DNA of 64,000 nucleotides, from contig WPIO01000250.1 of the NCBI GenBank assembly GCA_009760855.2, positions 124,001-188,000 of the forward strand. Direction: 5' to 3'. The notes under the pieces were generated by a model. It was not told the origin of the DNA, did not search any database, and saw only the letters and a program-made list of their open reading frames with translations. Position 1 is the first letter of the stretch. Every line of letters starts with the position of its first letter. A program made the position numbers and the translations under genes. Below are positions 406 through 63,000 of this stretch, piece by piece. The DNA comes from Cristatella mucedo. Lineage: Eukaryota; Bryozoa; Phylactolaemata; Cristatellidae.

Positions 406-593
406 TCATTTCCTGAGTGAAGCCTTTCTCACATTCTTCTCGACATGAGCTAGATGGCTCTTGCTAGTGAGGCTATTCATCAGCTCAGCCAGGTGCAGGT
501 TTCTGGTGTGCGATAGAAAAACCGTCGCTTGATTGAGGATATCGTTATCATGCAGAAGCCACACAGTATAAGCCCTGACTTCCATCATTTTTC
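406..593 (-). CDS. Terminal exon: second half of CARD 2 (Roco-CARD gene)
   Basis: Minus-strand open segment ending in TGA at 408-406. It encodes a hydrophobic segment around YTVWLLHDND, then a segment reading FLSHTRNLHLAELMNSL. This matches the pattern of the C-terminal half of a CARD: helix 5, a short turn with acidic/glycine residues, then helix 6 with HLAEL. A basic tail of about 20 residues follows. It is the natural partner of the first-half exon at 1788-1950. The best acceptor is the AG at 595-594, preceded by a weak pyrimidine tract. From there the open frame is entered in phase 1, whereas the upstream exon ends in phase 0. One extra base in the A run (T run 588-592 on the plus strand) would reconcile them. 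This may be a real frameshift or an assembly homopolymer error. The domain call is pattern recognition, not a search result. Confidence 0.5.
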
Positions 594-1787
594 CTTAAAA
601 TCGTTTCTTTCAATCATGAACCTGTAGAGCTGACGTGCACACTAGGACATTACGAAGCTATTTCATTTCGAATTAAGATGAAATCCAAGTAGATAACATA
701 AGCAAAGGCAAAGGTTACCGGAATTATAAGACTTAGCATCAAAATTGTGTTCGGCTGGTGTAGCTGTAGTATCATCTGCACGTAATGAGGGTGTCACGTT
801 CAAAAATGACTTTCAACTAGAAGACCACGTAAGATAATTCTGAACCTACTTGCATTTGCTGCCCATTAGGTAGTACATCAACTTCGAGGTTCTTTCAATC
901 TCTTTTAGGTCCGTCGAGCTTTTTCTGGACACTATATCCCCCAAACCTACTCATTCAGCTTGGCATCAAAACAAAGCTCTTCCGACAATAATAATTTCAA
1001 TAAAATGGCATTTAGATAGCACCAGGTGATAGTTTAAATATAAATATAATTCATTTATATAGCGCCCAAGATAACTTGATCTCTATTCAGGCGCTTCACA
1101 TATGCCTCGGGGCTCGAGCCCACGACCTCAGTCAGACCTTGGTCGGGGCGAGCCCCGTAACCACTAGACCAAACCAGCTCGGCAATAGTTACATCTTTCG
1201 GTACTAACTTGAAATTTGCTCGATTAGTTTGCTGGGCCTCCAAGCGAGGTAAAATCCGTTGGCGAAACGGACTTCAGTTTGAATACTCTCGAAGGCCGAA
1301 ACTCACCACCGACTGAAGCCGACTCCCCCGACTAGACATGATTTAAATTCAGGCAACGAATCTGTGTCTCAATGCATTCACTCCTAGGTGAGCTGATCTT
1401 TCACCTACAAACGTTGCAAAAGATAACAAGTTTCCTTTTAAGCTTCTGTAGAGCCAGCCTAAAGAAATTTAGTTTTTTAAGAGAGTACACAAATATCCTA
1501 TTAAATACTATTTTATTGCTAGTCTTGTGAAAAGTCGTAATGTTCAGGCTTGCAGAAGCTGGCTGTGAATGACGGACCTGCCGCATTACTCGAATCTACC
1601 CCCTTGGTCAAACATTGTCAAGCAGGTCATTTAAGTTCTATGCTAAGAAGCTCAGGACGGCAGACCATTAAAAAATTTCTAGCTAGCAAATAATTTCTTC
1701 CTTCCTGGTCTAATTTGTTTGGTTATTTGTTTTAGATATTTGCTCTGAATTATTGACAAGTTCTTCCGAAAATCAACGAGGGCTTAC
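594..1787 (-). other. Intron between CARD 2 halves
   Basis: This intron joins the donor after 1788 to the acceptor at 595-594. It contains one SINE (1036-1190). The rest (594-1035 and 1191-1787) shows no gene, repeat or RNA that I can recognise. Confidence 0.4.
1036..1190 (-). mobile_element. tRNA-derived SINE, family 1, with LINE-like tail
   Basis: On the minus strand this reads as a tRNA-like head: an A-box-like GGTCTAGTGGTTACGG, then a B-box-like GTGGGCTCGAGCCCC. It is followed by a short tail, AAGCGCCTGAATAGAGATCAAG then GGGCGCTATATAA, and an AT-rich end. A second copy of the same head and tail is at 44145-44280 on the plus strand, so it is a dispersed family and not a functional tRNA gene. 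The tail resembles the 3' hairpin end of the abundant LINE in this window. Confidence 0.75.
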
Positions 1788-1950
1788 CCCAATATTCTCT
1801 TTCTCAAAGCTGCTAATGCATTTGCCAGAATAGAGTACATCCGCTGCTTGTTGGATCTCGGTTTTATTCAGCTCGTCAATAAGCTTGGACGTTGCTTTCT
1901 TTAACTGATTTTGAAGAATAGATTGCTCGTTTGGGGGGCGTCGCTTGTGG
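1788..1950 (-). CDS. Exon: first half of CARD 2 (Roco-CARD gene)
   Basis: The minus strand is open from the acceptor GGTAG at 1955-1951 to a good donor GGG|GTAAGC (GT at 1787-1786). The translation starts with a P-P-N-E-Q motif, then amphipathic helices around NQLKKATSKLIDELNKTEI, then ADVLYSGKCISSFEKENIG. This resembles CARD helices 1 to 4 and aligns by eye with the exon at 17623-17780, which begins P-N-Q and ends ITAELEEIE. Both end in phase 0. The CARD frame is entered here in phase 2, whereas the linker exon upstream ends in phase 1. One extra C in the six-C run near the start would restore phase 1 and make the module identical in layout to CARD 1. Coding status is fairly likely; the exact start is uncertain. 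Confidence 0.6.
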
Positions 1951-2375
1951 CTACCAAATATCGATCCAAATTAAGTGCTGAATTATGAAATCTACAGTTC
2001 GGTCTTTGAGAATTTTATAACTATGCAGGTCAGCCAAACGTTGTGAATCGTATATGCAACCCATCAACTGATTGAGACTGGTACGAGCTTGTGAGAGCGA
2101 CGAGATATTTAGGGGTCAAGGCGAGTAATTTAAACACCCAGGGAAAGAAAAAAGCAGACTTGATATGCCTCTAGGCTATTGGTGTAGTCCACCTGTCAAC
2201 TAAGTTGTTCCAATAAACAGCTGATCACCCAACTTGGCATACACGGCTGAATCGTGGATTTGCTACCTGGCAAAGAACTAGCGTCCATCGAAGCTCCCTC
2301 AAATTATAGCATTACATTGATTGCCAACTGATTTCGTCAAAGTCAACTCAAAAATATAGAATATAGTTAGGCTTA

Positions 2376-2556
2376 CCCTACTGGAAAAAAATAAATACTA
2401 GCTGATTTCACAGCCTCTTTTTGTATAGCGACAGAAGAGCGTTTACGGCTATCACCGCCGCTTACAGTGGCTATAAAGGATCGCCCACAGCACGATTCGA
2501 ACCCATGACCTGCTGGCCGAGGTCGTGAAAAGTGCCTTACCTAGTGAGCCATTATG
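2376..2556 (-). mobile_element. tRNA-like SINE, family 2
   Basis: On the minus strand the head reads TGGCTCACTAGGTAAGGC (A-box-like) and later GGGTTCGAATCGTG (B-box-like). It is followed by a body with GGGCGATCC, a stretch around GGCGGTGATAGCCGT, then CTCTTCTGTCGCTA. Diverged copies with the same order of blocks are at 23240-23415 and, more weakly, 22640-22800. The shared non-tRNA body shows it is an interspersed repeat. Confidence 0.6.
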
Positions 2557-4537: not shown

Positions 4538-4621
4538 CGTCAGTAGACCGCTCTCTTTTTTGCTTTGCAGCTGGTCTTCGATCTGTGGTAGAGCCAGGAG
4601 CCGCAACTTTGCGGCTTAGAC
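4538..4621 (-). CDS. Exon: basic linker 2 (Roco-CARD gene)
   Basis: An 84-nt minus-strand segment lies between an acceptor with a good pyrimidine tract (CTTGTTTTTTCAC...TTAG, AG at 4623-4622) and a donor GACG|GTAAGC (GT at 4537-4536). Read in phase 1 to phase 1 it is open and encodes a basic, low-complexity linker ending around RRPAAKQKRERSTD, possibly a nuclear-localisation-like patch. It sits between the two CARD exon pairs. Its phase fits the end of the exon at 15299-15464, and it has the same phase class and basic character as linker exon 26748-26837. Short and without domain homology, so only moderately supported. Confidence 0.4.
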
Positions 4622-13112: not shown

Positions 13113-13124
13113 GCTAGGATTGTA

Positions 13125-13625: not shown

Positions 13626-13629
13626 AGGT

Positions 13630-15115: not shown

Positions 15116-15302
15116 CCGATTCACCTGGCCGATTCATTGAGGACTCACCAGGTCTCATTCTTCGAAGTCTTACATAGTCTCTCTTATCGGATACTCACCA
15201 GGGCTCACAAACCGGATACTCACTAGTACTTTATTGAATTTTCACTTGGATACAACACACATCATTTATTCGCCTGGTCTCAATTATCGGCGACTCACCT
15301 GG
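15116..15302 (-). repeat. Degenerate repeats of the splice-donor neighbourhood
   Basis: On the plus strand, variants of TATCGGaTACTCACCAGG recur at about 15116, 15141, 15184, 15211 and 15286. The last overlaps the donor of the CARD 1 exon (GT at 15298-15297). On the minus strand each reads as a donor-like CCAGGTGAGT followed by a CCGATAA word. Confidence 0.45.
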
Positions 15303-15464
15303 ATTTGTTTGGCGAAATCCTTTCCGTTCAATAAGATCGGCAAGTGTGGCAGCTCCGACCTCATCAAGACGAAGAGCAGCAACAAAGGCGCTGGCTCCTT
15401 CCTCCCCCTTCTTTAGCACGAGATAAACAAGGTGACCGGCTGCGCCCGTAGCCGTGGCCTTTGC
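15299..15464 (-). CDS. Exon: second half of CARD 1 (Roco-CARD gene)
   Basis: Minus-strand exon between the acceptor TTTTTTTGTAG (AG at 15466-15465) and the donor CCAG|GTGAGT (GT at 15298-15297). It is read in phase 0 and ends in phase 1. The translation holds GHLVYLVLKKGEEGASAF, then VAALRLDEVGAATLADLIE. This is a clear CARD C-terminal half: helix 5, a K-G-x-x turn, helix 5/6 with F..AL, and L-A-x-L-I-E in helix 6. It continues in frame from the phase-0 end of 17623-17780; together they give about 98 residues, the usual CARD size. It is GC-richer than its surroundings. CARD is preferred over a death domain because of the KKGEE turn and the AL...LADLIE ending. No database search was possible. 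Confidence 0.75.
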
Positions 15465-17622: not shown

Positions 17623-17780
17623 CTCTATTTCCTCTAACTCTGCGGTAATCAGCCCGTTTCCGGTTATCAGCTGGTTTCCGATCAGAGCACGTGCAATCTG
17701 CATTACTTGTGGCTTGCTCAGTTGATCAGCAATAGCTTTCATATTTGTCCTGATGGCATCATACAGACTTTGGTTTGGGG
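17623..17780 (-). CDS. Exon: first half of CARD 1 (Roco-CARD gene)
   Basis: A 158-nt minus-strand exon with a strong acceptor (CATCTTTTGCAG, AG at 17782-17781) and donor GAG|GTAACC (GT at 17622-17621). It enters in phase 1 and leaves in phase 0. The translation begins A-P-N-Q-S, followed by amphipathic helices LYDAIRTNMKAIADQL, a KPQVMQIARALIGN helix and a LITAELEEIE segment. This is the order of CARD helices 1-4, with the typical 'glycine-L-x-T-x-E-x-E-x-I' signature before the intron. It splices in frame to 15299-15464. Its entry phase matches both the end of the Roc-COR exon and the end of linker 1, so linker 1 could be optional. A solo LINE tail lies 38 bases upstream of the acceptor. Confidence 0.75.
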
Positions 17781-17817
17781 CTGCAAAAGATGTTGAAGGT
17801 TGTGTTTCAACAAGTCA

Positions 17818-21270: not shown

Positions 21271-21272
21271 TA

Positions 21273-26747: not shown

Positions 26748-26837
26748 CTTCCCATGACCTCTTCTTAGGTGCTGCCAATGAAGCTGGTAGGTCACTGCTG
26801 GCACAGGGCAGTAGGGCTGCAGCTTTGCCATCATTAC
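26748..26837 (-). CDS. Exon: basic linker 1 (Roco-CARD gene)
   Basis: A 90-nt minus-strand segment follows an excellent acceptor (CTTCCTTCTTTCTTTCAG, AG at 26839-26838) and has a donor GAAG|GTAACC (GT at 26747-26746). Read in phase 1 to phase 1 it is open and encodes a small Ala/Ser-rich linker ending LAAPKKRSWE, with a short basic patch. Its phases fit between the Roc-COR exon (ends phase 1) and CARD 1 (starts phase 1). It mirrors linker exon 4538-4621 in phase, size and basic end. Because it is phase-symmetric it could be skipped without a frameshift. A longer alternative frame through the same DNA (26616-26858) has incompatible phases. No domain homology, so moderate confidence. Confidence 0.45.
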
Positions 26838-33795: not shown

Positions 33796-35614
33796 CTGGC
33801 TGTTGTAGATACATCCACATCGCAGGTATTTTGCAGTGGCACTTGTCGCAATGCCAGGTTCTTGAATGTCGTGGCTCAGCTCTACTTTTCCCGTTATTCG
33901 CCAGTTTATTCCAAGCCACTGGGCGTCCGTGAGGCTGTTGGTCCGTTGGTCTCTCCACGTATCTCGATTCAGGGCATACAAGCTTACATATCGGTGGGAC
34001 GCCTTTCCACGACATTGCCAAATTATCATAGATGCAGTCAAGCAAGGAATGTAAAGCTGTCCAGACTTCCTGCTTGCCAGATTTTGAAAATGCCACCAAT
34101 TCCAAAGCACTCTTGTTACGTCTCATTATTATACGTACATAATCCAGTTTGACGAGTACACCGTCCTTCCAATACGTTGGCTCAGCATTTTTCGAGCGCA
34201 GCCAGGACAACACTGAAGCCAGGTTTGTTGGAAAGAAAGCGAGTGGCATGTAATTTCCCAGGAAGCTGAGCTGCAAGCAAACAGGAGGATCTTTAGCGGC
34301 CTTGTTTAGCCACTCCTGCAGTGTAGAAGGGGGCTGCTCAAGGAGATTACCAGTCAAGATGTACTCATCCTTAGAAGTCGTGATCATGTGAAAATGTTGC
34401 ATAAAATTGCTGACAACATCGACATAGCTACTTCCCAGCAATTGTGCAAAGAAATTTCTATCAAGAAGCCCTTCACGATATGAGTCCATTAAATCTTTGT
34501 AATAGTCGTCAAGTTGAAGACTTTCAGAAGATTCGTGATGCAATACCTTCTTTAAATCGAGAACAATTTGCCGAGGTTGATTGAAAACGAAGTCTTTAAG
34601 GGATGAAGAGTCCTCTAACCATATAATCTGGGATGTAGATACGAGAATTCTAAGTATAGTTTTCAGTTTGGAGTCGTCCGGCTGTGGCTCCAACTGTTCA
34701 TACACTGACTTTCTGACCTGCTCCCATTCCAAATACGGTCGATAGTTGTCATCTTCTGACTTAAGGCCCTTTATTCCTTTCATAATACGAAACCATAATG
34801 CAGGATATTGCTCCGGGGCCTTTAGTTTTTCCTTGACTAATGATTCAAACTCAGATAAGCTTTTACCATTGTCTTTGCAGCTCACCGTTGTGAATGAAAT
34901 GTCAGCAGCTTTTATATTTTTAAGATGCCGTTTGAGGAAGTCGACGTTAGTTTTGGAGGAATCCGAACGTGATTCAAGTACTGTTATGTGATCTGCAAGC
35001 TCTTTTTCAGCATCCAAATGAATTTGGTTTACGTACTTATTCATCTCTTCTTCCACATTCTTGAGTTGGCCTGGTTCAAGACAATCGGAATGCGTGCCAA
35101 CTACGATAACTCGTATCTCTGTTGATTTAGCAAATATCGTCATAAGCCATTTGTTTACTTGCTCCTTCAGATCCTTAACGTTTTGACTAACGTCGAACGC
35201 AATTATGCAAAGTCCATTGGAAGGCAAAAATATTGGAACCACTGTTTGATAAATTTCATGTCCACCAAAGTCATTCACATTTATCATCTGATCCTCAAAC
35301 TTTACAAGTCTCTGATCTATCACACGAGTTCTATCGTCAGCTGCAGCAGTGGATGGCCGGCCGATGAGTAGCGACTGAACGATGCTAGTCTTTCCTGCTC
35401 CCGTGTCTCCAAGCATGTTGATAGTATCACAGAGTAGCCATACCTTCCCCTGAGTGATATCTCGGAAGTACTCTCGAATAGATTTAATTCCCTGGTCACA
35501 CACTGCTGCAGGTGGAAAAACCATTGGATTTCCGTCCAATTTGAGCCTGGTCAGTGAGGTATGAATAACTTCCTCTGGCAGCTCAGTTATATTGTTTCCA
35601 CGTCCAGGATACGC
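33796..35614 (-). CDS. Roc-COR exon of a Roco-family protein (last LRR, Roc GTPase, COR)
   Basis: A single 1819-nt minus-strand exon, open throughout. It runs from acceptor TTTTGCTTTAG (AG at 35616-35615) to donor CCAG|GTATGA (GT at 33795-33794), entered in phase 0 and left in phase 1. Residues 1-35 hold the last LRR (NNITELPEEV, then LTRLKLDGNP and VFPPAAV). The Roc GTPase follows with P-loop GDTGAGKTS at about 68-76, the DFGGHE switch box at about 115-120 and THSD as the G4 motif at about 174-177. The COR domain starts near PALWFRIM and includes LDRNFFAQLLGSSYVD and YILTGNLLEQPP. A Cys-rich end (WHCDKCHCKIP) follows. Roco proteins are GTP-regulated dimeric signalling scaffolds. No kinase domain follows; the inferred partners downstream are CARD exons. 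The first ATG inside the exon is not a start. Confidence 0.93.
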
Positions 35615-42127: not shown

Positions 42128-42235
42128 CCTGCCATGCCAGTCATTTGATAGGTCGAGATATTGAAGACTCTTCAAACCGAGGGTACCAGTAGGGTAAGTC
42201 TTCAGGCAGTTGTCATTAAGACTCAGCACCTGCAA
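42128..42235 (-). CDS. LRR exon joining the tandem LRR array to Roc-COR
   Basis: A 108-nt minus-strand exon with acceptor CTCTCTTTAG (AG at 42237-42236) and donor AGG|GTAAGT (GT at 42127-42126), phase 0 at both ends. It encodes LQVLSLNDNCLKTYPTG, then LKSLQYLDLSNDWHGR. Spliced to 35614, the second repeat completes across the junction: LQYLDLSND, an insertion of about ten residues, then NNITELPEEV. Its start follows naturally from the end of the exon at 49725-49862 (LEGMKS, then LQVLSL), so the LRR register is kept over both junctions. This exon is outside the tandem array and is diverged from the array exons. Confidence 0.88.
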
Positions 42236-43164
42236 CTAAAGAGAGGAAAGAAGTGTGAAGGTCAGAAGAAAGGATTATATGCATGATGATTTGTCGGAAG
42301 CCTCAGCAATACTGACGATCCTTGACAACCATCCGAATAATAAGCTGGAATTATTATTACAGTACCGGCAACGGAAACCCGAAATGGTTTATGGATTGGC
42401 AATGCATTTGACAAAGCAAACCTGCATGTACTTGGAGATAGAAGTGGATGGCAAAACTCAGGAGATGCTGGAGTAGCATTTCCGGAAGTTTATATCATGG
42501 CCGTATGCAAAGATTATTTGAAAGTCTCCACTCCTTATAGGAGACACTGCATAATATGCTCACGGAAGTACCACTAACAATGGTTTTGGGGCAGTATATT
42601 TAATGCTCGGAAATAGCAATAATAAATGTCTAAAAGCACCAAATTGATTCTCTGCTGGCCAAATAAAGAGTGAGTGCAAAGCCATAACGATCATGCGAAC
42701 ACATACTCGTTAGTATGAAGGCTTCATTGAGTTAAAAAGAATACTTCGTATAGTAGATTTGACCCTGCAAAGCCTGTTGATCATTTATTGACCGCTGAAA
42801 GTTGTGACTGAAAATAGGTCAGTGCATTTAGAACTGGAGATCATATATGTATTGGTCCCTGGTCCAAACTGAATTTGGCTCCTCTTCGTTCTTAATTCCA
42901 ATTATTCCTTTGCTCGGACTCCTTCCATACGCAGTGCCCTAGCTTATGACCAGTGGTTGCATACAGGAATGCATGAACAATTGTTTATGATTCATACACT
43001 TCTTAACTGCTGTGCTGCTGCGTGCACTGCTCTTTTTATGACTAATAGACACACTTTTCGAACAATAGCAACATAAATTCGAATACCGTATTAAAACCAG
43101 TAAAACCTAACGCTGACTGCATGCTTTCTCAGCCATCTGTCAGCTTGGTTAGGCCGCATAGAGA

Positions 43165-43266
43165 AGCATGAAGCCGATTCAGTGCATGATGCAGCTGGCA
43201 CGTGGACGGAGGAAGAGTGGCGAGATCCGCAGTTTTTTTTTTAAAGATCGAGATACCTCAGCTTGA
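43165..43266 (-). pseudogene. Decayed LRR exon
   Basis: The minus strand reads CTGAGGTATCTCGATCTT, then a run of ten A, then CTCGCCACTCTTCCTCCGTC and GTGCCAGCTGCAT. These parallel the array exons: an L-x-x-L-x-L block, an L-T-T-L-P-P block and C-Q-L-H. An in-frame TAA at the A run and a frame change between the two halves make it non-coding. The downstream half (the LPDGxEGMK part) is not recognisable. Confidence 0.65.
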
Positions 43267-44280: not shown

Positions 44281-44324
<44 letters not shown>

Positions 44325-47933: not shown

Positions 47934-50882
47934 GTGCTACCTGAAAACGATCGCCGTATTACTAAACTTGAAAAGAGCATGCGTGGGTTAAATTGAAACC
48001 AAATAGGACGAAGTAACTACTGCTTGCTTTGGCGGTACCTCAATTAGCCGAGAAGAAATATTCATTTTGGCAAATCAAACGTCTTACTTGAATTAGTGAG
48101 CCCGAAACAATCGTTACTATTGCTGCTGACTATGACACAATGACAGCCTATATTTAAAATATAAAAGCTCAACTGTACGGTACATGCTGTTAACCTTAAC
48201 GTCATATTATCCTTCAAGTTTTTGCAAACCTAACGATACAATCTGTAAATGGTGTGTGTCAGCAGAAAGTATGCTTAAAATAAAACGTTCCCTTTACGAT
48301 GATGCAAAGGTCATTAGAGCGATGCAAAAAGAGTTATTTCATTTTGACGTTTCTTACGGCCGTAGGTCGCAAGGCAAAATTAAATTAAGCTGTTGTCACT
48401 ACAACCATTTTTTTTAGTGAGAAATACTTCGTTGGAATGTCAGCACAGCCAGGCAGGCTAAACGTCTCTGAAATTATCAGCATTCCATTTATTCAATTAG
48501 CTTTGGGGGATAGAGAGGTTTAAGCGATAGATTGAAAGAACGCTTTCGTTGTTATGGTCATTTATGGTTTCTCGATGCAACCCGCGAGTTTTCCTTGCCA
48601 GTGGCTGCGAAGTTGCGCCTGTTGCTTGTATTAGGCCGGTAAACACAATTCCACTAAGCTAAATGTTCTGCAAGTGTGTATGTCAGGTAAATACGCCCTA
48701 ACGGAATTTCAACCATTGGCTGCTAACCTAACAAAATACAGGGTTTGAGGTCTGTCTATTATTTACCAGGTGATTCAAAACAAGCATTCGTTTTCGAATG
48801 CCAAATAACCACAGGCTGTTAGCCCTGAATAAAACCTAAATGTAGTGCAGCATATTTACACCAGTTCATCCAATTCGCAACCAGCCTAGAACACCTACTA
48901 GGAGTAGCTCGATTTTTCTCACTTCCGATTATCATAGACGCATTTAACAAACGATAAGATCACCAGACTAAAAAACTTTTGGCGTATTATTTCAAGTACA
49001 AACTGTTTGATCGATGCACGAACTAATTTCAGATACCGTCGCGCCTTCTAGCACCTCTAATTCAGCCAAACTGAATACTGGCACAGCCGTAACGGCTGTC
49101 AAAGCTGCCTGTAAGCAGGCTATTTATACCGGCACGTTAAGTAATTTGATTCAGGGGTTCTTTCAAAACAGCACTCTTTAATACTTCAACAAGTACAATG
49201 GGATCGAAGGAGGATATCACGTGCCATATGAATCTATGGTTTATCCTGCTCACGTCCTAATTACGCTGCTTTTCTTTTTACATATAGGCCCGACATCATA
49301 TTCAAGCATTTAATTCAGACAACGACGAACGCAAATGTTGCTAACAGTAAAAGCTCCTAAACGTACCGTATAGATCGAAAGCGTGACTAACCGTTATAAA
49401 TTCTCAACCTAAAAGCTAGTTGCATGCTTTAATTGTAAATTACACAAAACCTTACCGTGTGGGCAAGCCAAGTCGCAAGTGGGAATGCTATAAGAAAGAA
49501 CCTTGCTAACGACCAAGGTTTAAGAACGCAGTGCGACAACGTCATTTTCTCNAGGAAAAGAGAGGACATGAGCCGTCACGAAAACAATTCTTTTTTATTA
49601 AAGACAGTCGTTTATACTACGCCGCTTTGGCCTTCGAGACCAAACGAGTTACGAAGAAATGAAATTGAAATATAGTTTGGATCTTTTAAAAATCCAAGCG
49701 TTTAAACTTTCCTTCTGAGCTTACCGACTTCATGCCTTCCAATCCATCAGGCAGGTTATTAAGACGATTCCTACCAGCTTCCAGAATCTTCAGTGCATGC
49801 AGCTGGCACATGGATGTAGGAAGAGTTGTGAGATTATTCTCACTGATAGCGAGCATCTCCAGCTACAGAATAAAAGGAAAAGTAATGCAATGTTAGAACC
49901 GCTCACGCTTGTTATCCACCAATCTTTAAAGAAAGCACGGCCAATTTCTCAATACAGGTAAGTACCAGGCACAAGACATACTGGTCACCTTAGCATAATG
50001 TTCATCTAAATCGCTAGTGAATGATCGATCGATCCAATCAAATGATGTTAATAAACCAGTTCTTACTTAGGCGGCGGTAATGCAAGACAAATAGCAAGTG
50101 GCATAGCTAAAGTTCCACTCACAGGCTTAAGAAACACTTTGACTTTCTAAGCTTGCCGAGAATCGTAAGCCGAGCAAAAAACATTATTAAAAATAGCGAA
50201 ACGTGACGTCAGTGCACACTTTAATTAGATGAGTAAGAATCAATACGAGGCTGTAGGATACTTGAGCATTTTCGCTGCACCTTGAGGATCACAAAGCCAT
50301 CTAAAGTGGCAGTATCAGTCGACAGATTTACGAGGTTTAGTTGCCCATTAGCTGTAGATTGAGACGAACTACAACGCGTGCTGTCGCATCAATTTAAATT
50401 GCAGTCCATCAAAAATGGCAGCCAGCGTAGAAAACCTAAAAAAGATTGTTGCATCGAGGGAACCTAATTCGGTAAAATTAAGAAACCTGTGTACTACAAA
50501 CTTCCTGCGAAGACTAAAGAAACATTCCATGGCACTGTTTTGGAATGCTTACAAGTGAATTACAATGGGCCTTAAGCAGTACTCCTGCGTACGGCTTTCT
50601 TCATTCAATGCAATTCTTCGCTAAAGCTTCTGAACGACCTCTGGAATTGATTGCGTTCAAATCCTAAAAGTACTTGTGGGAATGAGTCACTTGTCCTATA
50701 CAGAACACCAATAGGTTGCACTAGTCTAATAGCTCAAGTCATTCACCTCAGCTTCAAAAAAGCCATGCTGCATTCATGCTGAATACCTAAGATGACATGA
50801 TGTGGACAGTGAATTACCTAACACTGTTACCAGTAGTGCAGTTGCCTTTTCTAGCGATTTCAGTCACTATTTAGAGAAGTAA
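47934..50882 (-). repeat. Tandem unit 1 (edge copy) with LRR exon
   Basis: A unit of about 2.95 kb, counted from the GTGCTACCTGAAAACGATCG landmark to its next occurrence. The part left of its exon is clearly diverged from the other units, with several indels. The part right of the exon (49863-50882) is almost identical to unit 2, suggesting unequal exchange or conversion with a breakpoint near the exon. It contains one N at 49552. Confidence 0.92.
49725..49862 (-). CDS. LRR exon of tandem unit 1
   Basis: A 138-nt exon (46 codons), phase 0 at both ends, with acceptor TTTTATTCTGTAG and donor TCG|GTAAGC (GT at 49724-49723). It encodes two LRRs: LEMLAISENNLTTLPTSMCQ plus LHA, then LKILEAGRNRLNNLPDGLEG plus MKS. 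It is the most diverged of the array exons and the last before 42128-42235 in the transcript. Its final residues lead straight into the next repeat, LQVLSL. Confidence 0.88.
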
Positions 50883-53800
50883 GTGCTACCTGAAAACGAT
50901 CGCCATATAACTAAACTCAACAAGAGCCTGTGTGGTTTAAAGTGAAACCAACCAAGGACGAAGTAGTTATTGCATGCTTTGGCAGTCCCTCAATTTGCCC
51001 GAAAAGAAACATTCTTTTTGGCTTATCAAACCCCGTAGTTGAAAGTGCAAGGCCGAAAGTTGTAATATTACATGCTGGCCAAATAACACTATACTTAGTA
51101 AAGCCGTCTGTGTATTCATATTTAAGCTTTGCATTAGCAAGCATTAAATTGTATACAATCAATAAGTGTGATTAACCATTTCTACCTAAATCTTGTTTCT
51201 TGTATCACTACGAAAGTCAAAGAGTGACGCACGTTGAGTTTCTGAAAGGTGATGTACCACCAGTGACTTACCATTGTCTTTTAACCACCTCAAACGAGTA
51301 TTGAAGTGTCCTAACTGCGAGATTAAGCTCACGATTTTATTACTATTGTCTATTTAAGTGGTACCAAGAGAAAACTTGTCTGCATACATTGCTGATAATT
51401 GAGAAATCCGCTCAGCCGAACGCCCTACGACAGTAGCTGACGCGGCTTACGGACGGCCATGAGAGGTTTCGTCGACCTGCTATTTAGATACTAGAAAACA
51501 GCAGATGGGTCCGGCTAAACGTGTGTGTGTTAATTCAAGAAAAGACAAGACTAGGCACATCCGCACAAAGGAAGGCTCTTGTCACTAGGATCGAAAGATA
51601 ATACGAAGCTGCATATTTACATTAAGTTAAGACGTAATTTAATGTGCGTAAAAAATATGCTCAAACGCTATTAGACAGTTTGACGTCCGAACCATTTATG
51701 CTTTTACGGCATGTTAAAGCTTAAATCATGATGAAAGCGTAGCCCATCCTTAGCTAACAAGTAGAACAGAATCAGCAAATAATTTCGCGTCTCACTTCAA
51801 TACTTTCCTCCTATCCTTTATCAACTCAAACTGAGCTTATTTTACGAGCCAAATAAATCAAACCTCTAGGTCAATGTAATCGGTGAGTAAATAAGCGTGA
51901 CTATTGTTGTCGACATCGACGTATTAACAGCCTATATTTAATGTACAAAAGATCAAATGTACGTTACGTGCTGTTAACCTAAAAAGCAATATTTACTTTA
52001 ATTTTTTGCACACCTAATGGTACGATCGGTATGCCGTACGTCTCAGATGAAAGTCTTTTTTCCGATACCGTCGCATGTTCTAGCACCTCTAATTCAGCCA
52101 AACTGAACACCGGCACAGCCGTAACGGCTGTCAAAGCTGCCTGTAAGCAGGCTATTTATACTGGCACGTGGAGTATTGTCATTCATAGGTTCTTTCAAAA
52201 CAGCACTCTTTAATAATTCGACTGGTACAACGGTATCGAAGGAGGATATCACGTGCCATACGAATCTATGGTTCATCCAGCTCACGTCATAATTATGCTC
52301 CTTTTTCTTTTACATATAGGCCCGACATCATATTCAGGCATTTTAATCAGAAAAAGATGAATTCAAATGTTGTTGAAAGTAAAGGCTCCTAAACGTAACG
52401 TATCGAGCGAAAGCATGACTAACTGTTATACGTTCTCAATCTAAGAGCTAGTTGCATGCTTAATTTGAAAATTACTCAAAACCCTAAAGTGTGACCTTTG
52501 CAAGTTAATAATAGGAATGCTCTAAGAGAGTACCTTGCTAAAACGACGGTTAAAGAACCCAGCGCCACAACATCATTTTCTCGTTTCAGTAGTTTCAACG
52601 AATGTATGTAACCGAGTAAATGAAAGGACATGTGCCGCACTAAAACAATTCTTTTGAATTAAAGACCATCGTTTATACTACGCCGCCATGGCCTCTGAGA
52701 GCACACGACTTACAAGGGGAAAGGAATTCAAAATATTTAAAACGTTTCAAAAATCCTTGCGTTTCAACTTTTCGTCTGAGCTTACCGCCTTCATGCCTTC
52801 CCATCCATCGGGCAGTTCATTTAGATGACAATGAGACAAATTAAGCTTCTTCAGTGCATGCAGCCGGCATATGGATGTAGGAAGCGATTTCAGACCATAG
52901 TTGCAACTGATATCGAGCTCCTCCAGCTACAGAATAAAAGGAAAAGCACTGCACTGTTAGAACCGCTCACGCTTGTTATCCACCAATCTTCAAAGAAAGC
53001 ACGGCCAATTTCTCAATACAGGTAAGTACCAGGCACAAGACATACTGGTCACCTTAGCATAATGTTCATCTAAATCGCTAGTGAATGATCGATCGATCCA
53101 ATCAAATGATGTTAATAAACCAGTTCTTACTTAGACGGCGGTAATGCAAGAGAAATAGCAAGTGGCAGAGCTAAAGTTCCACTCACAGGCTTATGAAACA
53201 CTTTGACTTTCTAAGCTTGCCAAGAATCGTAAGCCGAGCAAAAAACATTATTAAAAATAGCGAAACGTGACGTCAGTGCACACTTTAATTAGATGAGTAA
53301 GAATCAATACGAGGTTGTAGGATACTTGAGCATTTTCGCTGCACCTTGAGGATCACAAAGCCATCTAAAGTGGCAGTATCAGTCGACAGATTTACGAGGT
53401 TTAGTTGCCCATTAGCTGTAGATTGAGACGAACTACAACGCGTGCTGTCGCATCAATTTAAATTGCAGTTCACCATAAACGGCAGGCAGCAGAGAAATCT
53501 TAAGGAAAACTAGTTTATCGAGGTGGCTTAACTCAGTAAAATTGAGGGACATGTGTACTACTAACTTCCTGCGTAGACTAAAGAAACATTCCATGGCACT
53601 GTTTTGGAATGATTACAAGTGAATTACAATGCGCCTTAAGCAGTACTCCTGCGTACGGCTTTCTTCATTCAATGCAATTCATCGCTAAAGCTTTTGAACG
53701 ACCTCTGGAATTGATTGCGTTCAAATCCTAAAAGTACTTGTGGGAATGAGTCACTTGTCCTATACAGAACACCAATAGGTTGCACTAGTCTAATAGCTCA

Positions 53801-53946
53801 AGTCATTCACCTCAGCTTCAAAAAAGCCATGCTGCATTCATGCTGAATACCTAAGATGACATGATGTGGACAGTGAATTACCTAACACTGTTACCAGTAG
53901 TGCAGTTGCCTTTTCTAGCGATTTCGGTCACTATTTAGAGAAGCAA
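50883..53946 (-). repeat. Tandem unit 2 with LRR exon
   Basis: A unit of about 3.06 kb, nearly identical to units 3-6 over most of its length. The short (GT)n at about 51520 is four to five repeats here. The exon is at 52786-52926. The remainder is intron on the minus strand with no other feature that I recognise. Confidence 0.95.
52786..52926 (-). CDS. LRR exon of tandem unit 2
   Basis: A 141-nt exon (47 codons), phase 0 at both ends, with acceptor TTCTGTAG and donor GCG|GTAAGC (GT at 52785-52784). It encodes LEELDISCNYGLKSLPTSIC plus RLHA, then LKKLNLSHCHLNELPDGWEG plus MKA: two leucine-rich repeats of 24 and 23 residues. The second LRR is nearly invariant among units 2-5, whereas the variable positions cluster in the first LRR on the exposed LxxLxIS strand and loop (C-N-Y-G-L-K here). 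Confidence 0.9.
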
Positions 53947-56940
53947 ATGCTACCTGAAAACGATCGCCGTATAACTAAACTCAACAAGAGCCTGTGTGGG
54001 TTTAAGTGAAACCAACAAGGACGAAGAAGTTATTGCATGCTTTGGCAGTCCCTCAATTTGCCCGAAAAGAAACATTCTTTTTGGCTTATCAAACCCCGTA
54101 GTTGAAAGTGCAAGGCCGAAAGTTGTAATATTACATGCTGGCCAAATAACACTATACTTAGTAAAGCCGTCTGTGTATTCATATTTAAGCTTTGCATTAG
54201 CAAGCATTAAATTGTATGCAATCAATAAGTTTGATTAACCATTTCTACCTAAATCTTGTTTATTGTATCACTACGAAAGTCAAAGAGTGACGCACGTCGA
54301 GTTTCTGAAAGGTGATGTACCACCAGTGACTTACCATTGTCTTTTTACCACCTCAAACGAGTATTGAAGTGTCCTAACTGCGAGATTAAGCTCACGATTT
54401 TATTACTATTGTCTATTTAAGTGGTACCAAGAGAAAACTTGTCTGCATACATTGCTGATAATTGAAAAATCCGCCCAGCCGAACGCCTTACGACAGTAGC
54501 TGACGCGGCTTACGGACGCCCATGAGAGGTTTCGTCGACCTGCTATTTAGATACTAGCAAACAGCAGATGGGTCCGGCTAAACGTGTGTGTGTGTGTGTT
54601 CATTCAAGAAAAGAAAAGACTAGACACATCCGCACGAAGGAAGGCTCTCGTCACTAGGATCGAAAGATAACACGAAGCGGCATATTTACTTAAAGTTAAG
54701 ACGTAATTTAACGTGCGTAACAAACATGCTTAAACGCTATTAGACAGTTTGACGTCCGAACCATTTATGCTTTTACGGCATGTTACAACTTATATCATGA
54801 TAAAAGCGTAGCCTATCCTTTGCTGACAAGTAGAATAGAATTAGCCAAAAATTTAGCGTCTCACTTCAATACTTTCCTCCTATCCTTCATCAACTTAAAC
54901 TGAGCTTATTTTACGAGCCAAATAAAACAAACCTCTAGGTCAATGTAATCGATGAGTAAATAAGCGTGACTATTGTTGTCGACATCGACGTAATAACAGC
55001 CTATATTTAATGTATAAAAGATCAACTGTACGTTACGTGCTGTTAACCTAAAAATCAATATTTACTTCAATTTTTCGCACACCTAATAGTACGATCGGTA
55101 TGCCGTACGTCTCAGATGAAAGTCTTTCTTCCGATACCGTCGCATGTCCTAGCACCTCTAATTCAGCCAAACTGAACACCAGCACAGTCGTCACGGCTAT
55201 CAAATCAGCCTGTAAGCAGGCTCTTTATACTGGCACGTGAAGTATTGTCATTCATAGGTTCTTTCAAAACGGCACTCTTTAATAATTCGACTAGTACAAC
55301 GGTATCAAAGGAGGATATCACGTGCCATAAGAATCTACGGTTTATCCAGCTCACCTCCTGATTATGCTTATTTTTCTTTTACATATAGGCCCGACATCAT
55401 ATTCGGGCAGTTTAATCAGAAAAAGATGAATTCAAATGTTGTTGAAAGTAAAGGCTCCTAAACGTAACTCATCGAGCAAAAGCATGACTAACTGTTATAC
55501 GTTCTCAACCTAAGAGCTAGTTGCATGCTTAATTTGAAAATTACTCAAAACCCTAAAGTGTGACCTTTGCAAGTTACAAATAGGAATGCTCTAAGAGAGT
55601 ACCTTGCTAACGACGACGGTTAAAGAACCCAGCGCCACAACATCATTTTCTCGTTTCAGTAGTTTCAACGAATGTATGTAACCGAGTAAATGAAAGGACA
55701 TGTGCCGCACTAAAACAATTCTTTTGAATTAAAGACCATCGTTTATACTACGCCGCCATGGCCTCTGAGAGCACACGACTTACAAGGGGAAAGGAATTCA
55801 AAATATTTAAAACGTTTCAAAAATCCTTGCGTTTCAACTTTTCGTCTGAGCTTACCGCCTTCATGCCTTCCCATCCATCGGGCAGTTCATTTAGACGACA
55901 ATGAGACAAATTAAGCTTCTTCAGTGCATGCAGCCGGCATATGGATGAAGGAAGAACATGCATGCTTATTATTCAACAGTCTTCTAAGAGAGCACGGCCT
56001 ATTTCTCATTACAGGTAAGTACCTGGCACAAGACATACTGGTCACCTTAGCATAATGTTCACCTAAATCGCTAGTGAACGATCGATCGATCAAATCAAAT
56101 GATATCAATAAACCAGTTCTTACTTAGGCGGCGGAAATGCAAGAGAACTAGCAAGTGGCATACCTGAAGTTCCACTCACAGGCTTAAGAAGCACTTTGAC
56201 TTTCTAAGCTTGCTAAGAATCGTAAGCCGAGGAAAAAAACATTATTAAAAATAGCGAAACGTGACGCCAGTGCACGCTTTAATTAGATGAGTAAGAATCA
56301 ATACGAGGTTGTAGGATACTTGAGCATTTTCGGGGCACCTTGAACATCACAAAGCCATCTAAAGTGGCAGTATCAGTCGACAGATTTACGAGATTTAGTT
56401 GCCCATTAGCTGTAGATTGAGACGAACTACAACGCGTGCTGTCGCATCAATTTAAATTGCAGTTCACCATAAACGGCAGGCAGCAGAGAAATCTTAAGGA
56501 AAACTAGTTTATCGAGGTGACTTAACTCAGTAAAATTGAGGGATATGTGTACTACTAACTTCCTGCGTAGACTAAAGAAACATTCCATGGCACTGTTTTG
56601 GAATGCTTACAAGTGAATTAAAATGCCCCTTAAGCAGTACTCCTGCGTACGGCTTTCTTCATTCAATGCAATTCATCGCTAAAGCTTTTGAACGACCTCT
56701 GGAATTGATTGCGTTCAAATCCTAAAAGTACTTGTGGGAATGAGTCACTTCTCCTATACAGAACACCAATAGGTTGCCCTAGTCTAATAGCTCAAGTCAT
56801 TCACCTCTGCTTCAAAAAAGCCATGCTGCATTCATGCTGAATACCTAAGATGACATGATGGGGACAGTGAATTACCTAACACTGTTACTCTTAGTGCAGT
56901 TGCCTTTTCTAGCGATTTCGGTCACTATTTAAAGAAGTAA
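53947..56940 (-). repeat. Tandem unit 3, with a damaged exon
   Basis: A unit of about 2.99 kb, about 75 bases shorter than its neighbours because of a deletion over the exon 5' end. Otherwise it is very close to unit 4. The (GT)n at about 54585 is the longest of the array. Confidence 0.95.
55856..55954 (-). pseudogene. Truncated LRR exon of tandem unit 3
   Basis: The donor (GCG|GTAAGC, GT at 55855-55854) and the last 99 nt of the exon are intact and encode LPSSICRLHALKKLNLSH and RLNELPDGWEGMKA. The first 42 nt of the exon, the acceptor and adjoining intron sequence are missing. The junction reads AAGCATGCATGTTCTTCC, with an in-frame TGA just upstream. Since neighbouring exons are phase 0, skipping this exon leaves the frame intact. 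Confidence 0.88.
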
Positions 56941-59900
56941 GTGCTACCTGAAAACGATCGCCATATAAATAAACTCAACAAGAGCCTGTGTGGGTTTAAG
57001 TGAAACCAACAAGGACGAAGAAGTTATTGCATGCTTTGGCAGTCCCTCAATTTGCCCGAAAAGAAACATTCTTTTCGGCTTATCAAACCCCGTAGTTGAA
57101 AGTGCAAGGCCGAAAGTTGTAATATTACATGCTGGCCAAATAACACTATACTTAGTAAAGCCGTCTGTGTATTCATATTTAAGCTTTGCATTAGCGAGCA
57201 TTAAATTGTATACAATCAATAAGTGTGATTAACCATTTCTACCTAAATCTTGTTTATTGTATCACTACGAAAGTCAAAGAGTGACGCACGTTGAGTTTCT
57301 GAAAGGTGATGTACCACCAGTGACTTACCATTGTCTTTTTTTTACCACCTCAAACGAGTATTGAAGTGTCCTAACTGCGAGATTAAGCTCACGATTTTAT
57401 TACTATTGTCTATTTAAGTGGTACCAAGAGAAAACTTGTCTGCATACATTGCTGATAATTGAAAAATCCGCCCAGCCGAACGCCTTACGACAGTAGCTGA
57501 CGCGGCTTACGGACGCCCATGAGAGGTTTCGTCGACCTGCTATTTAGATACTAGCAAACAGCAGATGGGTCCGGCTAAACGTGTGTGTGTGTGTTAATTC
57601 AAGAAAAGACAAGACTAGACACATCCGCACGAAGGAAGGCTCTCGTCACTAGGATCGAAAGATAACACGAAGCGGCATATTTACTTAAAGTTAAGACGTA
57701 ATTTAACGTGCGTAACAAACATGCTTAAACGCTATTAGACAGTTTGACGTCCGAACCATTTATGCTTTTACGGCATGTTACAACTTATATCATGATAAAA
57801 GCGTAGCCTATCCTTTGCTGACAAGTAGAATAGAATTAGCCAAAAATTTAGCGTCTCACTTCAATACTTTCCTCCTATCCTTCATCAACTTAAACTGAGC
57901 TTATTTTACGAGCCAAATAAAACAAACCTCTAGGTCAATGTAATCGATGAGTAAATAAGCGTGACTATTGTTGTCGACATCGACGTAATAACAGCCTATA
58001 TTTAATGTATAAAAGATCAACTGTACGTTACGTGCTGTTAACCTAAAAATCAATATTTACTTCAATTTTTCGCACACCTAATAGTACGATCGGTATGCCG
58101 TACGTCTCAGATGAAAGTCTTTTTTCTGAAACCGTCGCATATCCTAGCACCTCTAATTCAGCCAAACTGAACACCAGCACAGTCGTCACGGCTATCAAAT
58201 CAGCCTGTAAGCAGGCTCTTTATACTGGCACGTGAAGTATTGTCATTCATAGGTTCTTTCAAAACGGCACTCTTTAATAATTCGACTATTACAACGGTAT
58301 CAAAGGAGGATATCACGTGCCATAAGAATCTACGGTTTATCCAGCTCACCTCCTGATTATGCTTAATTTTTCTTTTACATATAGGCCCGACATCATATTC
58401 GGGCATTTTAATCGGAAAAAGATGAATTCAAATGTTTTTGAAAGTAAAGGCTCCTAAACGTAACTCATCGAGCAAAAGCATGACTAACTGTTATACGTTC
58501 TCAACCTAAGAGCTAGTTGCATGCTTAATTTGAAAATTACTCAAAACCCTAAAGTGTGACCTTTGCAAGTTACAAATAGGAATGCTCTAAGAGAGTACCT
58601 TGCTAAAACGACGGTTAAAGAACCCAGCGCCACAACATCATTTTCTCGTTTCAGTAGTTTCAACGAATGTATGTAACCGAGTAAATGAAAGGACATGTGC
58701 CGCACTAAAACAATTCTTTTGAATTAAAGACCATCGTTTATACTACGCCGCCATGGCCTCTGAGAGCACACGACTTACAAGGGGAAAGGAATTCAAAATA
58801 TTTAAAACGTTTCAAAAATCCTTGCGTTTCAACTTTTCGTCTGAGCTTACCGCCTTCATGCCTTCCCATCCATCGGGCAGTTCATTTAGATGACAATGAG
58901 ACAAATTAAGCTTCTTCAGTGCATGCAGCCGGCATATGGATGTAGGAAGCGATTCCAGACTCCAGTTGTTACGGATATCGAGCTCCTCCAGCTGAAGAAT
59001 GACACGAAATGCAATGCAATGCTAGAACCGGTCAAGCTTATTATCCAACTCTTTAAAGAGAGCACGGCCTATTTCTCATTACAGGTAAGTACCAGGCACA
59101 AGACATACTGGTCACCTTAGCATAATGTTCATCTAAATCGCTAGTGAATGATCGATCGATCCAATCAAATGATATTAATAAACCAGTTCTTACTTAGACG
59201 GCGGTAATGCAAGAGAAATAGCAAGTGGCATAGCTAAAGTTCCACTCACAGGCTTAAGAAACACTTTGACTTTCTAAGCTTGCCAAGAATCGTAAGCCGA
59301 GCAAAAAACATTATTAAAAATAGCGAAACGTGACGTCAGTGCACACTTTAATTAGATGAGTAAGAATCAATACGAGGTTGTAGGATACTTGAGCATTTTC
59401 GCTGCACCTTGAGGATCACAAAGCCATCTAAAGTGGCAGTATCAGTCGACAGATTTACGAGGTTTAGTTGCCCATTAGCTGTAGATTGAGACGAACTACA
59501 ACGCGTGCTGTCGCATCAATTTAAATTGCAGTTCACCATAAACGGCAGGCAGCAGAGAAATCTTAAGGAAAACTAGTTTATCGAGGTGACTTAACTCAGT
59601 AAAATTGAGGGACATGTGTACTACTAACTTCCTGCGTAGACTAAAGAAACATTCCATGGCACTGTTTTGGAATGCTTACAAGTGAATTACAATGCGCCTT
59701 AAGCAGTGCTCCTGCATACGGCTTTCTTCATTCAATGCAATTCATCGCTAAAGCTTTTGAACGACCTCTGGAATTGATTGCGTTCAAATCCTAAAAGTAC
59801 TTGTGGGAATGAGTCACTTGTCCTATACAGAACACCAATAGGTTGCACTAGTCTAATAGCTCAAGTCATTCACCTCTGCTTCAAAAAAGCCATGCTGCAT

Positions 59901-60009
59901 TCATGCTGAATACCTAAGATGACATGATGGGGACAGTGAATTACCTAACACTGTTACTCTTAGTGCAGTTGCCTTTTCTAGCGATTTCGGTCACTATTTA
60001 GAGAAGTAA
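56941..60009 (-). repeat. Tandem unit 4 with LRR exon
   Basis: A unit of about 3.07 kb, nearly identical to units 3 and 5. It contains an intact exon at 58851-58991. The rest is intron. Confidence 0.95.
58851..58991 (-). CDS. LRR exon of tandem unit 4
   Basis: A 141-nt exon, phase 0 at both ends, with acceptor GTCATTCTTCAG and donor GCG|GTAAGC (GT at 58850-58849). It encodes LEELDIRNNWSLESLPTSIC plus RLHA, then LKKLNLSHCHLNELPDGWEG plus MKA. The second repeat is identical to that of unit 2. The first differs at the exposed positions (R-N-N-W-S-L-E against C-N-Y-G-L-K). Confidence 0.9.
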
Positions 60010-63000
60010 GTGCTACCTGAAAACGATCGCCGTATAACTAAACTCAACAAGAGCCTGTGTGGGTTTAAGTGAAACCAACAAGGACGAAGAAGTTATTGCA
60101 TGCTTTCGCAGTCCCCCAATTTTCCCAAAAAGAAACATTCTTTTCGGCTTATCAAGCCCCGTAGTTGAAAGTGCAAGGGCGAAAGTTGTAATATTACATG
60201 CTGGCCAAATAACACTATACTTAGTAAAGCCGTCTGTGTATTCATATTTAAGCTTTGCATTAGCAAGCATTAAATTGTATACAATCAATCAATAAGTGTG
60301 ATTAACCATTTCTACCTAAATCTTGTTTATTGTATCACTACGAAAGTCAAAGAGTGACGCACGTTGAGTTTCTGAAAGGTGATGTACCACCAGTGACTTA
60401 CCATTGTCTTTTTACCACCTCAAACGAGTATTGAAGTGTCCTAACTGCGAGATTAAGCTCACGATTTTATTACTATTGTCTATTTAAGTGGTACCAAGAG
60501 AAAACTTGTCTGCATACATTGCTGATAATTGAAAAATCCGCCCAGCCGAACGCCTTACGACAGTAGCTGACGCGGCTTACGGACGCCCATGAGAGGTTTC
60601 GTCGACCTGCTATTTAGATACTAGCAAACAGCAGATGGGTCCGGCTAAACGTGTGTGTGTGTGTTAATTCAAGAAAAGATAAGACTAGACACATCCGCAC
60701 GAAGGAAGGCTCTCGTCACTAGGATCGAAAGATAATACGAAGCGGCATATTTACTTAAAGTTAAGACGTAATTTAACGTGCGTAACAAATATGCTTAAAC
60801 GCTATTAGACAGTTTGACGTCCGAACCATTTATGCTTTTACGGCATGTTACAACTTATATCATGATGAAAGCGTAGCCTATCCTTTGCTGACAAGTAGAA
60901 CAGAATTAGCCAAACATTTAGCGTCTCACTTCAATACTTTCCTCCTATCCTTCATCAACTTAAACTGAGCTTATTTAACGAGCCAAATAAAACGAACCTC
61001 TAGGTCAATGTAATCGGTGAGTAAATAAGCGTGACTATTGTTGTCGACATCGAAGTAATAACAGCCTATATTTAATGTATAAAAGATCAACTATACGTTA
61101 CGTGCTGTTAACCTAAAAATTAATATTTCCTCCAATTTTTCGCACACCTAATAGTACGATCGGTATACCGTACGTCTCAGATGAAAGTCTTTTTTCCGAT
61201 ACCGTCGCATGTCCTAGCACCTCTAATTCAGCCAAACTGAACACCAGCACAGTCGTCACGGCTATCAAAGCTGTCTGTAAGCAGGCTCTTTATACTGGCA
61301 CGTGAAGTATTGTCATTCATACGTTCTTTCAAAACGGCACTCTTTAATAATTCGTCTAGTACAACGGTATCAAAGGAGGATATCACGTGCCATAAGAATC
61401 TACGGTTTATCCAGCACACGTCCTAATTATGCTTATTTTTCTTTTACATATAGGCCCCACATCATATTCGGGAATTTTAATCAGAAAAAGATGAATTCAA
61501 ATGTTGTTGAAAGTAAAGGCTCTTAAACGTAACTCATCGAGCAAAAGCATGACTAACTGTTATACTTTCTCAACCTAAGAGCTAGTTGCATGCTTAATTT
61601 GAAAATTACTCAAAAACCTAAAGTGTGACCTTTGCAATTTATAAATAGGAATGCTCTAAGAGAGTACCTTGCTAACGACGACGGTTAAAGAACCCAGCGC
61701 CACAACATCATTTTCTCGTTTCAGTAGTTTCAACGAATGTATGTAACCGAGTAAAGGAAAGGACATGTGATGCACTAAAACAATTCTTTTGAATTAAAGA
61801 CCATCGTTTATACTACGCCGCCATGGCCTCTGAGAGCACGCGACTTACAAGGGGAAAGGAATTCAAAATATTTAAAACGTTTCAAAAATCCTTGCGTTTC
61901 AACTTTCCGTCTGAGCTTACCGCCTTCATGCCTTCCCATCCATCGGGCAGTTCATTTAGACGACACTGAGACAAATTAAGCTTCTTCAATGCATGCAGCT
62001 GGAACACGAATGGAGGAAGAGTTGTGAGCTTCTCGTCGTAACTGATATCGAGCTCCTCCAACTGCAGAATGACACCAAAAGTGATGCGATGTAAGAACCG
62101 TGCACGCTTATTGTCCAACTTTCTTCTAAGGGAGCACGGCCTATTTCTCATTACAGGTAAGTACCATGCACAAGACAAACTGGTCATCTTGGCATAATTC
62201 TTACTAAATCGCTAGTGAATGCGTTCATCGTTACAATATACCAATATTAATAAACCAGTTCTTACTTAGACGACGGTAATGCAAAAAAATAGCAAGCGCT
62301 AAACTTGAAGTTCCAAGCACTGGCTAAAAAAACACCAAGACTTTCTATGCTTGCGAGGAATCGTAACAGAGGAAAAGAAAATTATTAAAAATAGCGAAAC
62401 AAGACGCCAGTGCACACTTTAATTAGATGAGTAAGAATCAATAGCAGGCTGTCGGATACATGAGCATTTTCGCGGCACCTTGAAAATCACAAAGCCATCT
62501 AAAGTGGCAGCATCAGTCGACAGATTTACGAGATTTAGTTGCCCATTAGCTGTAGATTGAGACGAACTACAACGCGTGCTGTCGCATCAATTTAAATTGC
62601 AGTTCACCATAAACGGCAGGCAGCAGAGAAATCTTAAGGAAAACTAGTTTATTGAGGTGACTTAACTCAGTAAAATTGAGGGATATGTGTACTACTAACT
62701 TCCTGCGTAGACTAAAGAAACATTCCATGGCACTGTTTTGGAATGCTTACAAGTGAATTACAATGCGCCTTAAGCAGTGCTCCTGCATACGGCTTTCTAT
62801 ATTCAATGCAATTCATCGCTAAAGCTTCTGAACGACCTCTGGAATTGATTGCGTTCAAATCCTAAAAGTACTTGTGGGAATGAGTCACTTGTCCTATACA
62901 GAACACCAATGGGTTGCACTAGTCTAATAGCTCAAGTCATTCACCGCAGCATCAAAAAAGCCCTGCTGCATTCATGCTGAATACCTAAGATGACCTGATG

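Follow-up and report, generated by a model that had tools for sequence, protein, structure and literature searches.

Analysis of a Cristatella mucedo locus suggests a multi-copy LRR-Roc-COR-CARD gene family

Organization of the locus

A stretch of 64,000 nucleotides from the genome of the bryozoan Cristatella mucedo (GenBank assembly GCA_009760855.2, contig WPIO01000250.1, positions 124,001 to 188,000; hereafter, the window) was analyzed together with the 572-Mb assembly of the same genome, in which it corresponds to C167:124001-188000. The minus strand of the window carries a Roco gene, in which exons encoding leucine-rich repeats (LRRs) are followed by a Roc-COR exon, a linker exon and two exons that together encode a CARD (Table 1). 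Joined in matching phase, nine exons from 62061 to 15299 form one open frame of 967 aa. The exit phases of LRR62, LRR59, LRR53, LRR50, LRR42, Roc-COR, linker 1, CARD 1a and CARD 1b are 0, 0, 0, 0, 0, 1, 1, 0 and 1, respectively, and the frame contains no stop codon, which bears out the phase agreement reported in an earlier note on this DNA for the path from the LRR array through CARD 1. The resulting domain order is LRR(n)-Roc-COR-linker-CARD. The same note had proposed a gene of more than 60 kb, and this length is confirmed by two more intact LRR exons located past the other end of the window (upstream on the contig, L012).

The gene is probably a member of a multi-copy LRR-Roc-COR-CARD family of putative intracellular sensors and seemingly retains a relic of a second CARD. 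This assignment is based on at least six intact exons with two LRRs each and the same phase (four inside the window, two immediately upstream), a further LRR exon, one large Roc-COR exon, a linker exon that is conserved and an intact CARD. A search of the same genome with the Roc-COR sequence gave at least 67 matches, at least 13 of which, the window copy included, are nearly full-length and free of stops. That the Roco gene is joined to a CARD is well supported by the exon phases, the Pfam analysis and an intact paralog.

Table 1. Features of the analyzed window (positions are those of the window)
Feature	Position	Strand	Description
LRR62	61921..62061	-	LRR exon, two LRRs, 47 aa, phase 0-0, intact
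LRR59	58851..58991	-	LRR exon, two LRRs, 47 aa, phase 0-0, intact
Dead LRR exon	55856..55954	-	Deletion has removed the acceptor and the greater part of the first LRR
LRR53	52786..52926	-	LRR exon, two LRRs, 47 aa, phase 0-0, intact
LRR50	49725..49862	-	LRR exon, two LRRs, 46 aa, phase 0-0, intact; one codon shorter, second LRR diverged
Tandem array	49027..64000	.	Segmental duplicates of ~3.03 kb, one LRR exon each, ~5 in the window; runs off the window end
Decayed LRR exon	43114..43224	-	In-frame stop
LRR42	42128..42235	-	Last separate LRR exon, 36 aa, phase 0-0
Roc-COR exon	33796..35614	-	Last LRR, Roc GTPase, COR, four-cysteine tail
Linker 1	26748..26837	-	90 bases, phase 1-1
CARD 1a	17623..17780	-	First exon of CARD 1, phase 1 in, 0 out
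CARD 1b	15299..15464	-	Second exon of CARD 1, phase 0 in, 1 out
Proposed linker 2	4538..4621	-	Open, phase fits CARD 1b, unsupported
CARD 2a	1788..1950	-	First half of CARD 2, probable relic; poor acceptor, wrong entry phase
Proposed second half of CARD 2	406..593	-	Rejected as a CARD exon

Roc-COR exon

The Roc-COR exon, already recognized in the earlier note, has a length of 1819 bases (606 codons and one base) and is entered in phase 0 and left in phase 1. According to the Pfam analysis, the Roc domain is present in the window copy (4.3e-13) and in all six aligned copies, and the closest solved structure to the window Roc is that of LRRK2 (1.7e-11). No NACHT match was found for the nucleoside triphosphatase domain of the window (that is, Roc) or for the aligned copies in the search for NACHT/NB-ARC domains; a weak nSTAND3 match (0.008) was noted in one of the six copies.

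As for the COR domain, the alignment of six copies matches LRRK1 across the LRR end, Roc and COR (profile positions 9–451, 1.2e-8). Pfam detects COR-A in three of the six copies (best value 0.0012), the window copy not being among them, and COR-B in the window copy only at a sub-threshold value of 0.06. With moderate confidence, the COR domain is considered to be present but divergent. No kinase domain was found on the window exons scanned with Pfam, a scan that covered exons of a gene whose 5' end was not reached.

The tail after COR contains four cysteines (residues 543, 547, 589 and 592; C-x3-C ... W-x-C-x2-C) that are invariant in all six aligned copies and may form a candidate zinc site. 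A weak Pfam match with Cript (0.07) was also noted for this tail.

In viral and prokaryotic collections, no Roc-COR relative was detected using six short peptide patterns, and one 23-base repeat word had no exact match. A megablast search of the Roc-COR exon against phages likewise gave no match.

Linker 1, CARD 1 and the paralogous loci

The joined CARD 1 exons show similarity with the Pfam CARD family (PF00619; 2e-6, 28.2 bits at a curated cut-off of 23.9), in agreement with the identification of the first CARD in the earlier note. CARD 1b alone gives a Pfam CARD match of 0.002, and no match is obtained for CARD 1a alone.

DNA downstream of Roc-COR was compared in other copies of the same genome, over 30 kb for C128, C193, C263 and C107 and over 8–10 kb for C150, C256 and C274; the downstream DNA of a partial second Roc-COR copy in C263 was also included. 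This second copy (C263:79059-80713) is located on the opposite strand at the contig end and consists of pieces that are 73–92% identical, one of them with an in-frame TAA. Linker 1, with the 1-1 phase assigned to it earlier, is kept in two of the seven other full-length paralog loci compared, C263 (81%) and C107 (74%), without a change of phase; at E ≤ 0.1, it has no match in the remaining compared stretches. Its acceptor scores among roughly the best 0.1% of the 4230 AG sites on the minus strand. Within the window alone, linker 1 is weak, with a negative codon score, and it is the paralogs that rescue it.

The most complete paralog is C263, in which Roc-COR, linker, CARD and stop codon form an unbroken frame of 753 aa with phases 1, 1 and 0. 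Its CARD is encoded by a first exon at 50521-50702 and a last exon that begins at 51844, and matches the Pfam CARD family with 1.4e-7. Linker 1 is regarded as real, as is the Roco-CARD layout, because C263 contains both in one unbroken frame. In C107, the first CARD exon is 75% identical. Broken remains of CARD 1 occur in C193, where both halves are represented, and in C128, where part of the second half is left; these relics are located on the Roc-COR strand, 6–8 kb downstream of Roc-COR.

Linker 1 lies 6.96 kb from the Roc-COR exon and 8.97 kb from CARD 1a, and reading through the Roc-COR donor leads to a stop at the sixth codon after PG (GMTVHR-stop), with a similar short tail and stop in C128 and C193. 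This could be expected if the Roco gene ended soon after the Roc-COR exon and CARD 1 belonged to a separate downstream gene. Such an arrangement is, however, quite improbable given the conservation and matching phase of linker 1 and the identical exon order in C263, which ends in a stop. In addition, the frame of CARD 1a contains no in-frame ATG ahead of the acceptor, so this exon must be spliced to upstream sequence.

Reading on past the CARD 1b donor gives a stop at 15233-15231 that overlaps an AATAAA motif. Inspection by eye of the region 15299-15100 after CARD 1b revealed imperfect repeats of a CCTGGTGAGT-like word, and several tandem donor-like sites are consequently present there.

Proposed second CARD

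The earlier note had placed two CARDs at the C-terminus, the second one encoded by exons 1950-1788 and 593-406 and reached through a second linker. The first CARD stands, as described above, whereas the second one as drawn does not, since its joins are out of frame, it has no Pfam match and the exon 593-406 is rejected. Linker 2 fits the exit phase of CARD 1b, yet no conserved copy of it was found (its matches in the compared paralog DNA are at E 0.11 or worse). The join 4538/1950 contains two stops and fails because linker 2 exits in phase 1 and CARD 2a is entered in phase 2. The join 1788/593 brings phase 0 against phase 1 and also gives stops.

The first half of the proposed domain, CARD 2a, is retained on the basis of its homology with the paralogs. 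It is similar to the CARD exons of C263 and C107 (36%; E 6e-7 and 7e-5, respectively) and ranks top among the open reading frames (ORFs) of the window when these are queried with the C263 CARD exon. CARD 2a has a weak acceptor, at the 55th percentile, and no known upstream exon fits its entry in phase 2.

The second half, 593-406, finds no support as a CARD exon in phase, Pfam or paralogs. This ORF ranks 1053rd of the 2147 window ORFs by Smith–Waterman score against CARD 1b and 485th among the matches listed against the second CARD exon of C263. Even when the two were bridged by a residue and values up to E 10 were allowed, the pair 1950-1788 and 593-406 matched no Pfam family. Among solved structures it had no relevant match, the best being an unrelated protein (E 1.3). 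One control favored the pair: the global alignment of the bridged pair with CARD 1 was equalled by only 1 of 2000 shuffles. In the local alignment with CARD 1, the corresponding number was 26 of 2000, and the similarity was confined to the first half; the genuine first half may thus account for the good global score.

A better candidate for this half begins outside the window, at C167:123826, which is 175 bases from the edge, and is entered in phase 0. Its similarity with the last exon of C263 is weak (30%, E 0.017), and its terminal stop is at the homologous end. Together with CARD 2a, and with X at the position of an internal stop, it matches Pfam CARD with 3.6e-4 and 20.9 bits, under the cut-off of 23.9; the piece alone has no Pfam CARD match. 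Since this likely partner carries a premature in-frame TGA, CARD 2 looks like a decaying relic. The divergence between CARD 2a and the C263 CARD is 0.55 at non-synonymous sites (dN) and 2.7 at synonymous sites (dS); the latter value is far above that of Roc-COR (dS 0.41), indicating that these two CARDs are not recent copies of each other.

The same data can be read differently: the gene may truly have two tandem CARDs, CARD 2 being completed immediately past the window edge and its TGA reflecting an allele or an assembly error. CARD 2a is a genuine CARD half, its phase-0 partner ends where the homologous exon ends, the pair gives a Pfam CARD match with X at the stop, and the divergence from the C263 CARD is old and constrained. 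This possibility is nevertheless considered very unlikely in view of the premature stop, the mediocre acceptor, the entry phase of CARD 2a, the bit score and the silence of Pfam on the second half alone.

An element at 1183-1043 resembles a tRNA-derived short interspersed element (by eye) and shows an 85% match near paralog C107; ARAGORN and Rfam gave no signal for it.

LRR exons and their tandem array

The two-LRR exons of the window are 141 or 138 bases in length, with GT-AG sites and phase 0-0. Four of them, all belonging to the tandem array, are intact, and LRR42 raises the number of intact separate LRR exons in the window to five. The main blocks of the 3.03-kb array units are 89.5–97.5% identical, and the end at 49027-49551 is 82–85% identical. 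A single N is located at 49552, exactly where the identity of the units falls from about 90–94% to 82–85%.

LRR42 shows 92% identity with its counterpart in C128 and 89% with that in C193. Joined to the start of the Roc-COR exon, it matches Pfam LRR_4 with 1.7e-8. The join of LRR42 to position 35614 puts an 11-residue insert, DWHGRAYPGRG, within an LRR, and near paralogs look similar on both sides. Relics resembling the decayed exon 43224-43114 were found in two paralog loci, L016 (E 8e-6) and L020 (E 0.011).

Variation was analyzed in six of the eight two-LRR copies found on the contig, the two dead ones and the shorter LRR42 being omitted. At the scaffold L/I positions, the proportions of non-synonymous (pN) and synonymous (pS) differences were 0.060 and 0.240; at the exposed strand positions, they were 0.311 and 0.240, that is, pN modestly exceeded pS. 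The permutation p values were 0.005 and 0.023, for position sets chosen after the per-site table had been inspected. These sets match the general LRR consensus. The LRR cassettes appear to duplicate as 3-kb units in which the leucine scaffold is kept and exposed residues are variable, as would be expected of a diversifying recognition surface.

Divergence between copies and selection

The identity between the window and C128 is 96–98% in the upstream introns, 89% in the Roc-COR region and 93.5% in a long block beyond it. In 100-base bins, divergence rises around the Roc-COR exon and persists into the 3' intron. Hypervariability restricted to the Roc-COR exon relative to C128 is ruled out, as the 3' intron is equally divergent; since the divergence spans both exon and intron, mosaic exchange between copies fits better.

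The dN/dS ratio of Roc-COR is 0.60 against C263, 0.44 against C107 and 0.34 against C150. The Roc-COR exons of the window and C128 differ by 179 substitutions with the frame kept. In a neutral simulation with 180 substitutions, the frame survived in 1 of 2000 runs, which argues that selection held the Roc-COR frame for at least part of the divergence time.

Several observations weigh against the assignment of the window gene to a family of LRR-Roc-COR-CARD sensors. The 5' end of the gene was not found, as the contig stops 1.3 kb past the outermost LRR exon, and no exon was identified downstream of CARD 1. The structure prediction for Roc-COR was poor (mean pLDDT 37.7), and CARD 1 has no significant solved relative, the best being NLRC4 (E 0.19). 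Of the four near paralogs compared over 30 kb of downstream sequence, three have a broken or missing CARD (C128, C193 and C107, the second CARD exon of the latter being frameshifted), and in C128 and C193 linker 1 was likewise not detected. Neither linker nor CARD was found within 8–10 kb downstream of C150, C256 and C274. The Roc-COR dN/dS against the nearest copies is 1.08 (C128) and 0.98 (C193), with which relaxed constraint would also be consistent. Finally, the peak of divergence in the first LRR runs 75–450 bases into the adjacent intron; part of the LRR variation can therefore be attributed to gene conversion, and positive selection as its sole driver is not upheld.

Some of these features, namely dN/dS of about 1 against near paralogs, together with two dead LRR exons, the broken CARD 2 and many broken Roc-COR copies elsewhere in the genome, might suggest a decaying pseudogene whose family was once functional. 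This is highly improbable, however, because the 606 codons of Roc-COR remain open despite the substitutions separating them from C128, at the low neutral survival given above, and CARD 1 and the five LRR exons of the window are intact.

Other features of the window

Scans of the window for tRNA and Rfam families gave nothing, and Pfam analysis of four other window ORFs gave no match. About a dozen repeat copies of 0.3–0.95 kb, 70–90% alike and with AAT-rich tails, are scattered on both strands between 5436 and 46209. Similar sequence in L025/L026 runs into an apparent reverse-transcriptase frame of a long interspersed element (by eye).

Possible function

CARDs signal through CARD-CARD assembly. 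In the mechanism that we infer for the window gene, the LRRs would bind a ligand inside the cell, and Roc-COR would switch through nucleotide-dependent dimerization, drawing the CARDs together. The clustered CARDs might then nucleate CARD-CARD assembly with a caspase or adaptor, and the output would be cell death or inflammatory signaling. The protein would operate in an NLR-like manner, with Roc-COR standing in for NACHT. Dimerization of Roco proteins through COR and switching by nucleotide-dependent dimerization are described in PMC4017136.

The earlier note had suggested an immune or cell-death adaptor with a Roco-CARD-CARD layout. Its Roco-CARD part is sustained by the phases, Pfam and the intact paralog, so that a role of the gene as such an adaptor is plausible, whereas the CARD-CARD layout is not supported. 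A more far-reaching proposal is that of a cytosolic animal receptor family in which LRR cassettes duplicating in the same phase (copy-number variable and alternatively spliceable) would provide a Roc-COR-CARD death-signaling chassis with varied recognition surfaces, forming a repertoire of innate receptors that uses Roco parts instead of those of NLRs; this is speculative and rather unlikely. If true, a Roc-COR-CARD family with expanding, variable LRR exons would back Roco proteins as immune sensors parallel to NLRs. C263, complete at its 3' end, offers a testable copy.

Comparison with known systems

The main reason for the study of Roco proteins has been LRRK2 in Parkinson's disease. The window gene resembles human LRRK1 and LRRK2: the Roc domain of LRRK2 is its best solved match, and LRRK1 aligns across the LRR end, Roc and COR. 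In contrast to them, it has a CARD, and no kinase was found on the exons scanned. NLRs such as NLRC4 combine an LRR sensor, an NTPase switch and a CARD. The CARD of NLRC4 is the nearest solved one to CARD 1, although not significantly so, and the window gene differs from NLRs in having Roc-COR in the place of NACHT and a C-terminal CARD.

Among other animals, Trichoplax adhaerens has ROCO proteins that carry CARD and death domains (Civiero et al. 2014, PMC4104024). They share with the window gene an animal Roc-COR surrounded by LRRs and a CARD, whereas amplified LRR exon cassettes are not described for Trichoplax in the part of that paper covered. Since these Roco-CARD proteins are in print, the novelty that the earlier note saw in a Roco-CARD-CARD layout is weakened.

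In brown algae, LRR-ROC-COR genes with shuffled LRR exons have been reported (Teng et al. 2024, PMC11378527). These candidate immune receptors resemble the window gene in their same-phase LRR exon cassettes and variable concave positions. The algal exons are 72-bp, single-LRR and phase-2, whereas those of the window are 141-bp, two-LRR and phase-0 and lie in 3-kb tandem units. By the same description, the algal genes retain the simple LRR-ROC-COR layout, to which the window gene adds a CARD. The Roco-TIR proteins of Aplysia are likewise Roco units fused to immune adaptor domains, but the domain is TIR or death-like in the part of the source accessible (PMC9334734), unlike the CARD of the window gene.

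No report joining Roco-CARD and LRR exon cassettes in one gene was found among the papers listed in the literature covered, most subscription papers being outside this coverage. Roco-CARD proteins and Roco LRR cassettes have each already been published, and a single gene with both, as the window sequence suggests, would be the new element.

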